From: Apostichopus japonicus
Taxonomy: Eukaryota > Echinodermata > Holothuroidea > Aspidochirotida > Stichopodidae
Direction: 5' to 3'
DNA: 64,000 bases
Assembly (NCBI RefSeq): GCF_037975245.1
Contig: NC_092576.1
Span: forward strand, 40,242,111-40,306,110
Shown here: one piece after another, positions 46,949 to 59,817 of the stretch
Layout of the letters: each line of letters opens with the position of its first letter
How positions within the stretch are numbered: the first letter of the stretch is position 1
Position numbers and translations under genes: made by a program
The notes under the pieces: generated by a model
Told to the model about the DNA's origin: nothing
The model's input: only the letters and a program-made list of their open reading frames with translations
The model's database searches: none

Positions 46949-46961
46949 ATGAGAAAACATG
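46949..46961 (+). promoter_or_regulatory. Start region of gene B with overlapping upstream ATG
   Basis: The chosen start AAAACATGG (ATG 46959-46961) has A at -3 and G at +4. Another ATG at 46949, in a different frame and poorer context, overlaps it and would stop reading within about 20 codons; it could lower translation. An acceptor-like TTTTCAG at 46890-46897 suggests an upstream untranslated exon may exist. Confidence 0.4.
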
Positions 46962-47019
46962 GCGATTCTCGACACAGGACTCCTTTTTGCGTTCACGGTA
47001 ATAATTGCAACATCGTCAG
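46959..47019 (+). CDS. Gene B exon 1: signal peptide
   Basis: Encodes [20 protein letters not shown] and ends in phase 1 at a GTAAGT donor. Short N-region, hydrophobic core LLFAFTVII and small residues before the junction make a standard signal peptide. A separate phase-1 signal exon is typical of Ig-superfamily receptors. Confidence 0.8.
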
Positions 47020-59000: not shown

Positions 59001-59817
59001 CATAAGTTAACTCGATTTTTCTTTTCTTTTGCGAAGTTGCTAAAAAATCTTGAACATTCAAAAACATCTCAACATTCCATACTTATAACGGAAGTGATGT
59101 AAATATCTTACGCAGTGATACGGTTTTCGTCTTTTCCAGTCCTGTGGCAACCATCAAAGTATGAATTTAGTTTAGACATCTCAATAGGCACGTGGAAGCT
59201 CCGCAACTCTCAAGAATCATTGGTACTTACCGTAAGTTACTGCGGCAGAATATTATATTTAAGTTGTAATATCTAACTTCATTATTTCTGATACAGAAAT
59301 ATTAGCTTTGAGCTCCTACATGTTATATTTGCATATCAAGTGCAACCGGGATAAATCTGTGCTTTTTAATGTTCAGATGTTACACTTTCATAGCTAAATA
59401 AGAATGAAAAATACAATTAAAATAACGTATAAACCCCCACCCAATAATTAAGAACAAATTACTTTCTCCTGGAATAGCAAAAAAAAAAAAAATACAAAGT
59501 AGATAAACAAGTTTTTTTTTATAGTTTAATTGGCTTCTCACGTTAGGTTAAAGATGTCTATTCTTAACGTTATTTAGTTAGTGATTGAAATAAATCAATA
59601 CCTTCCTTGGATGAAGAATTCATTCATTTCGATGTCATATCATGGGGTTGAACAATTTGACTTGATTAATTTTGTTACACACATTGACTTTGATACAATG
59701 ACTCGTGTATCTCATAAAAGGGAGCTCAAACATTGTTCTATGAGTAAAATTGTTATTAATGTTTTATACCCATCTGTTCAACTCCCCGAAGAAATAGAGA
59801 ACTTTCAACTGGGTTGA
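46959..59817 (+). CDS. Gene B: Ig-transmembrane-NACHT receptor
   Basis: Exons 46959-47019, 49392-49712, 52651-53304, 53601-53939, 54037-54150, 54794-54843, 55544-55565, 56038-57554, 58201-58406, 58632-58708, 59140-59231, 59578-59817 join in frame with consensus GT..AG sites and matching phases, giving about 1230 residues. Order: signal peptide (1-20), one V-like and three further Ig domains (21-458), transmembrane helix (about 470-492), basic stretch (493-513), NACHT ATPase with winged-helix part (521-1026), and short C-terminal exons of repeat-like character. Ig domains would face outside, the ATPase inside. NACHT proteins oligomerise on ATP binding to start immune signalling; a role as a membrane-bound recognition receptor is inferred. 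The usual NLR N-terminal death-fold domain is absent, its place taken by Ig plus membrane anchor. Gene A is a likely paralogue of the Ig part. Confidence 0.85.
47280..49000. repeat. Degenerate ~130-170-bp tandem repeat in intron 1
   Basis: About a dozen diverged units recur through the intron. Each has a version of GGAGGTCAAA..TCATCTGAGG then TCACCAGAGGTCAA, followed by GCTGAAAACCTTGTAAACAT then GATATCTCA.GATAGGA. Single units also occur in intron 2 at about 49985-50110 and 50325-50350. Each unit carries AGGTCA direct repeats. Not coding. Confidence 0.75.
49392..49712 (+). CDS. Gene B exon 2: V-like Ig domain
   Basis: Phase 1 in and out. V-like order: first Cys in GLIPCHCNG (45 or 47), core Trp in IIAWVNV (57), and the strand-F motif reads SVYRVSTA where Y-x-C is usual, so Val 107 stands in for the second core Cys. 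Extra Cys at 29 and near 120 might form another bond. Acceptor TTTTCCCATTGTACAG, donor GTATGT. Confidence 0.75.
49713..52650. other. Intron 2 of gene B
   Basis: 2.9 kb. Holds scattered AGGTCA-type repeat units near 50 kb. A possible 77-nt exon-like piece after TTTTCTTTGCAG (50797) was not accepted. No other feature seen. Confidence 0.6.
52651..53304 (+). CDS. Gene B exon 3: two Ig domains in one exon
   Basis: 654-nt phase-1 exon, residues 128-345. The first domain has [18 protein letters not shown] (Cys and Trp) and LLVCRANS (second Cys), the same RP.v.lsW core as gene A. The second has [15 protein letters not shown] and RLYACVYD (Y-x-C). Most Ig exons here hold one domain, so loss of an intron between two domains is likely. 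Confidence 0.8.
53601..53939 (+). CDS. Gene B exon 4: membrane-proximal Ig domain
   Basis: Phase 1 in and out, residues 346-458. Starts [13 protein letters not shown], has [18 protein letters not shown] (Cys and Trp) and VTVECRAVG (second Cys). The start [10 protein letters not shown] resembles ITIPVIQGC in exon 3, so these two domains are close relatives by internal duplication. Confidence 0.8.
54037..54150 (+). CDS. Gene B exon 5: transmembrane segment
   Basis: Encodes [11 protein letters not shown], then a hydrophobic run of about 23 residues ([20 protein letters not shown] then VIG), then YRIR, a basic stop-transfer end. Phase 1 in and out. Placement after the Ig exons and before the NACHT exon makes the product a single-pass type I membrane protein. 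Confidence 0.85.
54794..54843 (+). CDS. Gene B exon 6: basic juxtamembrane stretch
   Basis: 50-nt exon, phase 1 to 0, reading [17 protein letters not shown]: strongly basic just inside the membrane, then acidic. Acceptor TATTATTTTCAG, donor GTAATG. Confidence 0.65.
55038..55325. repeat. Long (TA)n tract in gene B intron, ~290 bp
   Basis: TA dinucleotide array with a few TTT interruptions (near 55166 and 55189), in the intron between exons 6 and 7. It is the longest microsatellite in the window. Confidence 0.95.
55544..55565 (+). CDS. Gene B exon 7: 22-nt microexon
   Basis: GIPMLEN plus one base, phase 0 to 1, between TTTTCCTTTTCACAG and GTATGT. It is accepted because it is the only piece that brings phase 0 of exon 6 to phase 1 needed by the NACHT exon. 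Confidence 0.55.
56038..57554 (+). CDS. Gene B exon 8: NACHT ATPase and winged-helix region
   Basis: One large exon, residues 521-1026, phase 1 to 0. Walker A is GEPGYGKST (603-611); Walker B is LLDGFDE (682-688); sensor-1 type VILTTRP ends at 719; [13 protein letters not shown] is the standard G-F-x..Y block; [13 protein letters not shown] matches the NLR 'c.vPlf' helix; [16 protein letters not shown] (904-919) is the NLR winged-helix signature 'F.H..fqEf.aA.y.a'. All nucleotide-binding residues appear intact. If the donor at 57555 is not used, reading stops 26 codons later at 57630. Homology to NACHT is clear; the ligand and partners are not known. Confidence 0.92.
58201..58406 (+). CDS. 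Gene B exon 9: C-terminal region, part 1
   Basis: Phase 0 to 2, starts [18 protein letters not shown] and ends [11 protein letters not shown]. Ending of the form '[12 protein letters not shown]' with the next exon resembles a degenerate leucine-rich repeat strand, as often follows NACHT. Acceptor TTTTCGTTTAG, donor GTAAGT. Confidence 0.75.
58632..58708 (+). CDS. Gene B exon 10: C-terminal region, part 2
   Basis: 77 nt, phase 2 to 1, reading [18 protein letters not shown] then LNSKHPQ. Acceptor CTTTTGTCCTCAG, donor GTATGA. Confidence 0.7.
59140..59231 (+). CDS. Gene B exon 11: C-terminal region, part 3
   Basis: 92 nt, phase 1 to 0, reading [29 protein letters not shown]. Acceptor GTCTTTTCCAG, donor GTAAGT. 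Confidence 0.7.
59578..59817 (+). CDS. Gene B exon 12: terminal exon (near 3' end)
   Basis: Follows TTAACGTTATTTAG in phase 0 and reads 79 codons ([15 protein letters not shown] ... [12 protein letters not shown]) to TGA at 59815-59817. Composition is protein-like and the phase fits exon 11. An AATAAA lies at about 60470. It competes with the exon pair at 61552 and 62293. Confidence 0.55.
   Translation, partial: LVIEINQYLPWMKNSFISMSYHGVEQFDLINFVTHIDFDTMTRVSHKRELKHCSMSKIVINVLYPSVQLPEEIENFQLG

Follow-up and report, generated by a model that had tools for sequence, protein, structure and literature searches.

In the 64,000-nucleotide window of the Apostichopus japonicus genome analyzed here (C16:40242111-40306110), the plus-strand stretch 46959-59817 is confirmed, on the evidence of its sequence, as one gene for a predicted membrane receptor, as a first-pass annotation had observed. 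We consider it probable that the product is a type I membrane receptor used in microbe sensing, a paralogue of AjNLRC4 with four immunoglobulin (Ig) domains outside the cell, a transmembrane (TM) helix, a basic segment, and a NACHT domain inside. The annotation's interpretation stood insofar as the sequence lends good support to a single gene whose product has its Ig part outside the membrane and its NACHT part within. By contrast, the novelty that it implied is unsupported because AjNLRC4, an Ig-TM-NACHT membrane receptor of the same species with equal architecture, was published in 2021 (PMC8699970); the architecture is already known in A. japonicus, and the window gene is an AjNLRC4 paralogue. 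What is new here are the signs of piece swapping with another copy. Read from the DNA are the exon chain with its order and conserved splice borders, the size of the family, purifying selection on it, the signals of topology, and a conflict between trees for different parts of the gene.

Exon chain and domain content

Spliced together, the exons form a single open reading frame with GT-AG borders and agreeing phases (Table 1). The final model comprises 12 exons and 3693 nt encoding 1230 amino acids (aa), without internal stop or frameshift. The proposed chain from a signal peptide through four Ig domains and a TM helix to NACHT was borne out by the splice borders, the phases, the Pfam matches, and the exon order in 10/10 paralogous loci, but two micro-exons between the TM and NACHT exons had to be added to it. 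Before this addition, the model had 10 exons with GT-AG borders in phase and encoded 1206 aa; its direct TM-to-NACHT splice is phase-consistent, yet it was superseded by the chain with the micro-exons.

These were sought in nine aligned sequences (the window and eight paralogues), requiring AG and GT to be kept in 9/9. Among seven candidate stretches, micro-exons 6 and 7 form the sole chain leading from phase 1 to phase 1, and the same rule applied as a control to the reverse complement and to the Ig3-Ig4 intron gave no chain. The 22-nt micro-exon by itself would break the phase and was discarded for that reason. Micro-exon 6 measures 50 nt in seven sequences and 44 in two, and is open in phase 1 in 9/9; micro-exon 7 measures 22 nt in five and 28 in four, so that both change length in 6-nt steps only. 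The translated junction is conserved as RIRARK..KRIK..GDTESEGIPM.EN, with some variable positions. The intron holding the micro-exons also contains a long TA-type dinucleotide run (54984-55349), and similar runs occur near 40127, 41388, and 45266-45580.

The domain search of the spliced product that had been suggested as a check returned, on the 1206-aa version, V-set (2.6e-7) and C2-set_2 (1.9e-5), both above the curated cut-off, and NACHT (3e-20). Walker A, Walker B (LLDGFDE), and TTRP, described in the annotation as intact, are all intact in the spliced product. NACHT lies at about residues 600-750 of the final model (576-726 in the 1206-aa model, plus 24), and the TM helix at residues 473-491 has the highest hydropathy within the protein (3.26). 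Ig3 falls below Pfam cut-offs when its own exon is searched; its support comes from the exon 3 profile, whose best match among solved Ig proteins, contactin-1 (4.8e-13), lies on the Ig3 part. Ig4 is the weakest domain, with no Pfam match above cut-off, weak C2-set_2 matches in 12/12 aligned members (best 0.0034), a profile that resembles the first part of Ig2 with a probability of 93.7 across 46 columns, and a match of 0.098 at best to solved Ig chains.

By sequence, the solved structure nearest to the NACHT exon is NLRC4 (8fvu, E 8.3e-10). Vertebrate NLRC4, which thus has the closest NACHT among solved structures, carries CARD and leucine-rich repeats (LRRs) and, to our knowledge, no Ig domain or membrane helix. 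Compared with canonical animal NOD-like receptors (NLRs), the window gene shares the NACHT domain and departs from them at both ends: Pfam searches of the 1206-aa protein, read down to E values of 1, gave neither an LRR family nor a death-fold or similar N-terminal effector domain, the N-terminal part being occupied by Ig and TM. Animal STAND ATPases are usually cytosolic sensors; here, the predicted signal peptide and TM helix speak against the canonical cytosolic location. As in AjNLRC4, there are N-terminal Ig domains, one TM helix between Ig and NACHT, intact nucleotide-binding motifs, and exons homologous with those of the published gene.

Table 1. Features of the predicted receptor gene (positions in the window)
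Feature	Position	Strand	Support
Exon 1: start codon and signal peptide, ends in phase 1	46959..47019	+	ATG and GT kept in 4/4 paralogue matches
Exon 2: Ig1 (V-set), phase 1-1	49392..49712	+	Pfam; 70-75% identity in four full-length paralogue matches
Exon 3: Ig2 (C2-set_2) and Ig3, phase 1-1	52651..53304	+	Pfam, profile; 10/10 paralogous loci
Exon 4: Ig4, C2-like, phase 1-1	53601..53939	+	Weak Pfam matches, similarity to Ig2, 10/10 loci
Exon 5: single TM helix, phase 1-1	54037..54150	+	Hydropathy; 8/10 loci
Micro-exon 6: 50 nt, phase 1-0, basic juxtamembrane segment	54794..54843	+	AG/GT kept in 9/9
Micro-exon 7: 22 nt, phase 0-1, GIPMLEN	55544..55565	+	AG/GT kept in 9/9
Exon 8: NACHT with helical and winged-helix part, phase 1-0	56038..57554	+	Pfam NACHT 9.1e-21
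NACHT lineage switch zone	56600..56740	+	Informative sites against P24268
C-terminal exon C1, phase 0-2	58201..58406	+	Similar exon in 7/10 loci
C-terminal exon C2, phase 2-1	58632..58708	+	1/10 loci (P40475)
C-terminal exon C3, phase 1-0	59140..59231	+	1/10 loci (P40475)
Last exon C4, with stop	59578..59817	+	1/10 loci (P40475), whose match holds an in-frame stop

Paralogous loci and selection

Ten paralogous C16 loci were fetched and searched for the exons at E under 0.01. The Ig2+3, Ig4, and NACHT exons stand in the same order and on the same strand in all ten, so the Ig-NACHT exon chain is not a chance arrangement; the TM exon was found in 8/10, Ig1 in 6/10 (one of them truncated where the fetched sequence ends), and the signal-peptide exon in 4/10. 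Over the whole genome (671,581,487 bases, 35 contigs), the Ig2+3 exon gave 133 rows, or 132 places once two pieces of one were merged. NACHT gave 85 places in one list (85 of 593 candidates being scored) and 106 in another (106 of 487 being scored), 45 of them overlapping, for a union of 146, all of these figures being lower bounds. At least 46 of the 132 Ig places have a same-strand NACHT within 15 kb downstream, each a distinct one, and among the matches listed, to which the following counts also refer, the other three arrangements occur 0 times within that distance. Within 25 kb, there are 47 downstream same-strand pairs against one upstream on the opposite strand and two upstream on the same strand. 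Where Ig identity is at least 40%, a NACHT partner is present in 17/19 places at 15 kb and 18/19 at 25 kb, and the place left over carries four stops. In a count over part of these lists (70 Ig and 104 NACHT places), 41/70 were paired, which gives 2e-25 if the four arrangements had equal odds, although this is no strict probability as the copies are related.

The splice borders are also largely kept in the paralogues. They are complete for Ig2+3 (AG 15/15, GT 16/16), Ig4 (8/8 and 8/8), and the TM exon (AG 8/8, GT 7/7). For the NACHT exon, AG is present in 10/13 and GT in 12/12, the acceptor being shifted a few bases inward with the phase kept in P36698, P36888, and P45143. For Ig1 the counts are AG 2/4, missing in P36698 and P36888, and GT 5/5. 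Furthermore, the ratio of nonsynonymous to synonymous divergence (dN/dS) among close family members, in pairs with dS of 0.03-1.5, has medians of 0.32 for NACHT (78 pairs), 0.39 for Ig2+3 (77), and 0.38 for Ig4 (36), with zero pairs above 1 for these exons; the NACHT and Ig2-4 exons are, by this sequence measure, under purifying selection. The medians for Ig1 and TM are 0.54 (15 pairs) and 0.75 (36 pairs).

Several other loci resemble parts of the family. At C10:14113271-14114677, a NACHT copy that is 77% alike, with four stops in it and pieces of Ig2+3 located 8.5 kb upstream, is likely a pseudogene on another chromosome. Clusters of Ig2+3-like exons with 22-28% identity and, among the matches listed, no NACHT within 15 kb (C15:11191239-11708970 and C16:8073512-8186596) are probably other Ig receptor families. 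Elsewhere in the window, the minus strand at 1202-5921 carries Ig exons of another receptor-like gene, with C2-set_2 at 1205-1582 (2.8e-8) and 4897-5310 (8.6e-5) and no match in a Pfam search of the frame 5547-5921. A proline- and threonine-rich open frame without Pfam match occupies 34244-34768 (minus strand), and GC content is raised (0.414) over 32001-36000, with a GC skew of 0.163.

AjNLRC4, topology, and alternative readings

The published ectodomain primers of AjNLRC4 map to C16:4497304 and 4499117, each with a single mismatch, and the two quantitative PCR primers match exactly, all of these sites lying in Ig exons. The locus so placed (L030) has its NACHT at 4501248 and contains the Ig1, Ig2+3, Ig4, and NACHT exons of the window family; the window TM exon gave no plus-strand tblastn match there, and the helix of AjNLRC4 is recognised here by hydropathy alone. 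The small interfering RNA target matches L030 with four mismatches at best. The two genes thus belong to the same species, chromosome, and gene family, with homologous Ig1, Ig2+3, Ig4, and NACHT exons, but they are separate loci about 36 Mb apart, with 47% identity in NACHT and 29-38% in Ig. AjNLRC4 has been reported with an Ig ectodomain, TM, and NACHT at 600-757, and without LRR and CARD (PMC8699970). A second TM published for it (776-795) maps, when counted from the NACHT start, onto a NACHT stretch, ILSDLCQIPLFFVLFAHIT, with a hydropathy of 1.70 against 2.56 for the better candidate helix, and is probably a misprediction.

Functionally, AjNLRC4 has been described as located at the membrane, with Ig domains that bind microbes and polysaccharides, followed by dimerisation, which is ascribed to the Ig domains, internalisation, and actin-dependent phagocytosis (PMC8699970). 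In further work, its Ig part is reported to bind caspase-1, with MLKL cleavage and lytic death (PMC11932488). The Ig part would be extracellular and caspase-1 is cytosolic, which makes their meeting puzzling in this scheme. Moreover, the printed AjNLRC4-IN primers (PMC8699970) match, with zero mismatches, C14:1474164 and C14:1477150 (L041 and L042) and not the NLR locus. The stretch between these sites encodes ZZ (5.7e-12) and UBA_5 (7.8e-18) domains. We take this C14 gene to be p62/SQSTM1-like. Because the AjNLRC4-IN primers match such a gene, the published link between NACHT and actin should be treated with caution; this discrepancy may reflect an error in the table or a wrong construct, and it matters for work built on that mechanism.

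Comparable domain combinations have been described in other animals and genes. AjNLR-new of A. japonicus combines Ig, TM, and NACHT in one protein whose length (1197 aa) is close to that of the window product, and is set beside the window gene by description only (PMC13133943). NLRs of the sea cucumber Chiridota heheva, compared by domain content only, were reported in 2022 to join NACHT with an Ig V-set domain, a type that the same source did not find in sea urchin (PMC8913654). Membrane-bound NLRs with NACHT and a predicted TM have been suggested for sponges, where the available part of the report mentions no Ig-NACHT combination and describes Ig together with TIR (PMC12909245).

Predicted signals in the sequence give good support to an Ig part outside the membrane and a NACHT part on its inner side. 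The window model has seven N-glycosylation sequons in the ectodomain and stalk and two inside (one in micro-exon 6), and over 12 loci the Ig exons hold 1.39 sequons per 100 aa, compared with 0.35 for the NACHT exons, although AjNLRC4 alone has four in each and no concentration in Ig. These sequons and the strongly basic stretch directly after the TM helix favor the NACHT-inside topology. The opposite one, with NACHT outside and Ig inside, was claimed for AjNLR-new from TMHMM and antibody work (PMC13133943); for the window gene, whose signal peptide moreover has its own exon, we give it hardly any credence. For AjNLR-new, the signal peptide may have been read as a membrane helix.

Whether the chain might be two adjacent genes, a short-tailed Ig receptor ending past the helix and a cytosolic NACHT protein with its own ATG, was the possibility raised against it at the outset. 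Read-through of the TM donor (54151-54170) gives RGT and then a stop in 7/9 sequences, and for this reason a short-tailed isoform without NACHT, produced by intron retention, is possible. An in-frame ATG also precedes the NACHT coding start by 21 nt in the window and occurs upstream in 7/16 paralogous sequences, at equal distance in three, but it is missing in the other 9/16. The gap is bridged in phase by the two micro-exons in all nine aligned sequences, the Ig-NACHT pairs within 15 kb among the matches listed keep one order and strand, and AjNLRC4 was reported as a single Ig, TM, and NACHT protein (PMC8699970), so we place very little weight on two genes. That the gene is a cluster copy which died recently or is silent is quite improbable: other copies are damaged (four stops each in the Ig exon C16:37628533 and in the C10 NACHT copy), and the counterpart of exon C4 in P40475 holds a stop, but the window model remains open throughout, and its NACHT has dN/dS of 0.12-0.32 against the 13 partners, out of 16, whose dS was computable. 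A receptor for self/non-self recognition or cell adhesion, diversified for allorecognition, would also fit clustered, piece-exchanging Ig receptor paralogues, and the ligand data come from AjNLRC4 and not from the window gene; since that ectodomain reportedly binds microbes and polysaccharides (PMC8699970), we regard this reading as unlikely.

Several observations weigh against a microbe-sensing type I receptor. The window gene is predicted here from DNA, and the function proposed for it is wholly borrowed from a paralogue of limited identity. The signal-peptide and Ig1 exons were not found in every fetched locus. Among the matches listed, a partner within 15 kb is missing for 86/132 Ig places and 100/146 NACHT places; the 100 NACHT places (37 on C12, 29 on C16, 17 on C7, nine on C22, and eight elsewhere) are either of another type or accompanied by Ig exons too divergent to be matched. 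Values of dN/dS exceed 1 in 10/36 TM pairs, in 3/15 Ig1 pairs, and for the 20-codon signal-peptide exon compared with P40475. LRTD, the motif proposed as the caspase-1 site (PMC11932488), does not occur in the window model; of 12 aligned Ig2+3 exons, that of AjNLRC4 alone contains it. Finally, the primer discrepancy weakens the published NACHT-actin step.

Proposed function and probable chimeric origin

For the type I receptor that we favor, the most likely function, by analogy with AjNLRC4, would be microbe sensing on coelomocytes. The Ig part would bind a ligand on a microbial (or self) surface, the occupied receptors would cluster, and clustering would draw the NACHT domains together. Ligand binding could in this way be coupled directly to NACHT oligomerisation. 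The receptor-ligand complex would then be internalised, leading to phagocytosis or, at high load, to lytic cell death. As a predicted surface receptor, the protein could allow ligand binding and NACHT clustering to be studied within one polypeptide.

The gene looks chimeric, its ectodomain and 5' NACHT exon part going with one clade and its 3' NACHT part with another. Between the window gene and ten main-clade genes, dS is 0.41-0.54 in NACHT and 0.12-0.24 in Ig2+3, while among the ten themselves it is 0.10-0.29 and 0.01-0.32, respectively; P24268 differs from the window gene by 0.40 in NACHT and 1.14 in Ig2+3. Trees were built from 14 rows, with groups picked after the dS values were known, so their p-values do not come from a prior test. 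The NACHT tree groups the window gene with P40475 and P24268 (100/99.7) and rejects a placement of the window gene and P40475 within the main clade (approximately unbiased [AU] test, p 0.0005). The Ig2+3 tree unites twelve genes (100/100) and rejects the group of window gene, P40475, and P24268 (AU p 0.007), whereas a clade of the ten alone is not rejected (AU p 0.27).

The conflict can be followed along the NACHT exon. At positions that are invariant in the main clade and different in P24268 (six with other states set aside), the window gene sides with the main clade or with P24268 at 18:0 sites in 56040-56540, 6:4 in 56540-56740, and 20:47 after 56740, the outer parts differing at a Fisher p of 2.8e-8. 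Compared with five main-clade genes, the first 463 bases of the exon show 89-95% identity and the last 554 about 78-79%. This switch would be explained if recombination or conversion had taken place where the Walker B/TTRP part gives way to the helical part. More broadly, and only tentatively, we suggest that dozens of germline Ig-TM-NACHT genes of sea cucumbers exchange ectodomains and NACHT halves, with breakpoints within the NACHT exon, the window gene and its neighbour P40475 being such chimeras.

In zebrafish NLR-B30.2 proteins, the recognition module is a C-terminal B30.2 domain, and we know of no Ig ectodomain or membrane helix in them. They form a large family of NACHT proteins whose recognition module and NACHT are affected differently by gene conversion (PMC4852459), and may serve as a precedent for module-wise gene conversion. 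NLR expansion in A. japonicus was already mentioned in a preprint (PMC13228809), so a large NACHT repertoire by itself is no novelty. Our literature search, with subscription papers mostly outside it, turned up no account in which Ig-TM-NACHT genes exchange pieces.

In the proposed scheme, the germline receptor repertoire would owe its diversity to duplication and to piece exchange between copies. If this is true, surface recognition and STAND-ATPase output would be mixed and matched through exchange between copies, and a large, piece-exchanging receptor family in an animal without antibodies would offer a test of the separate germline diversification of recognition and output.

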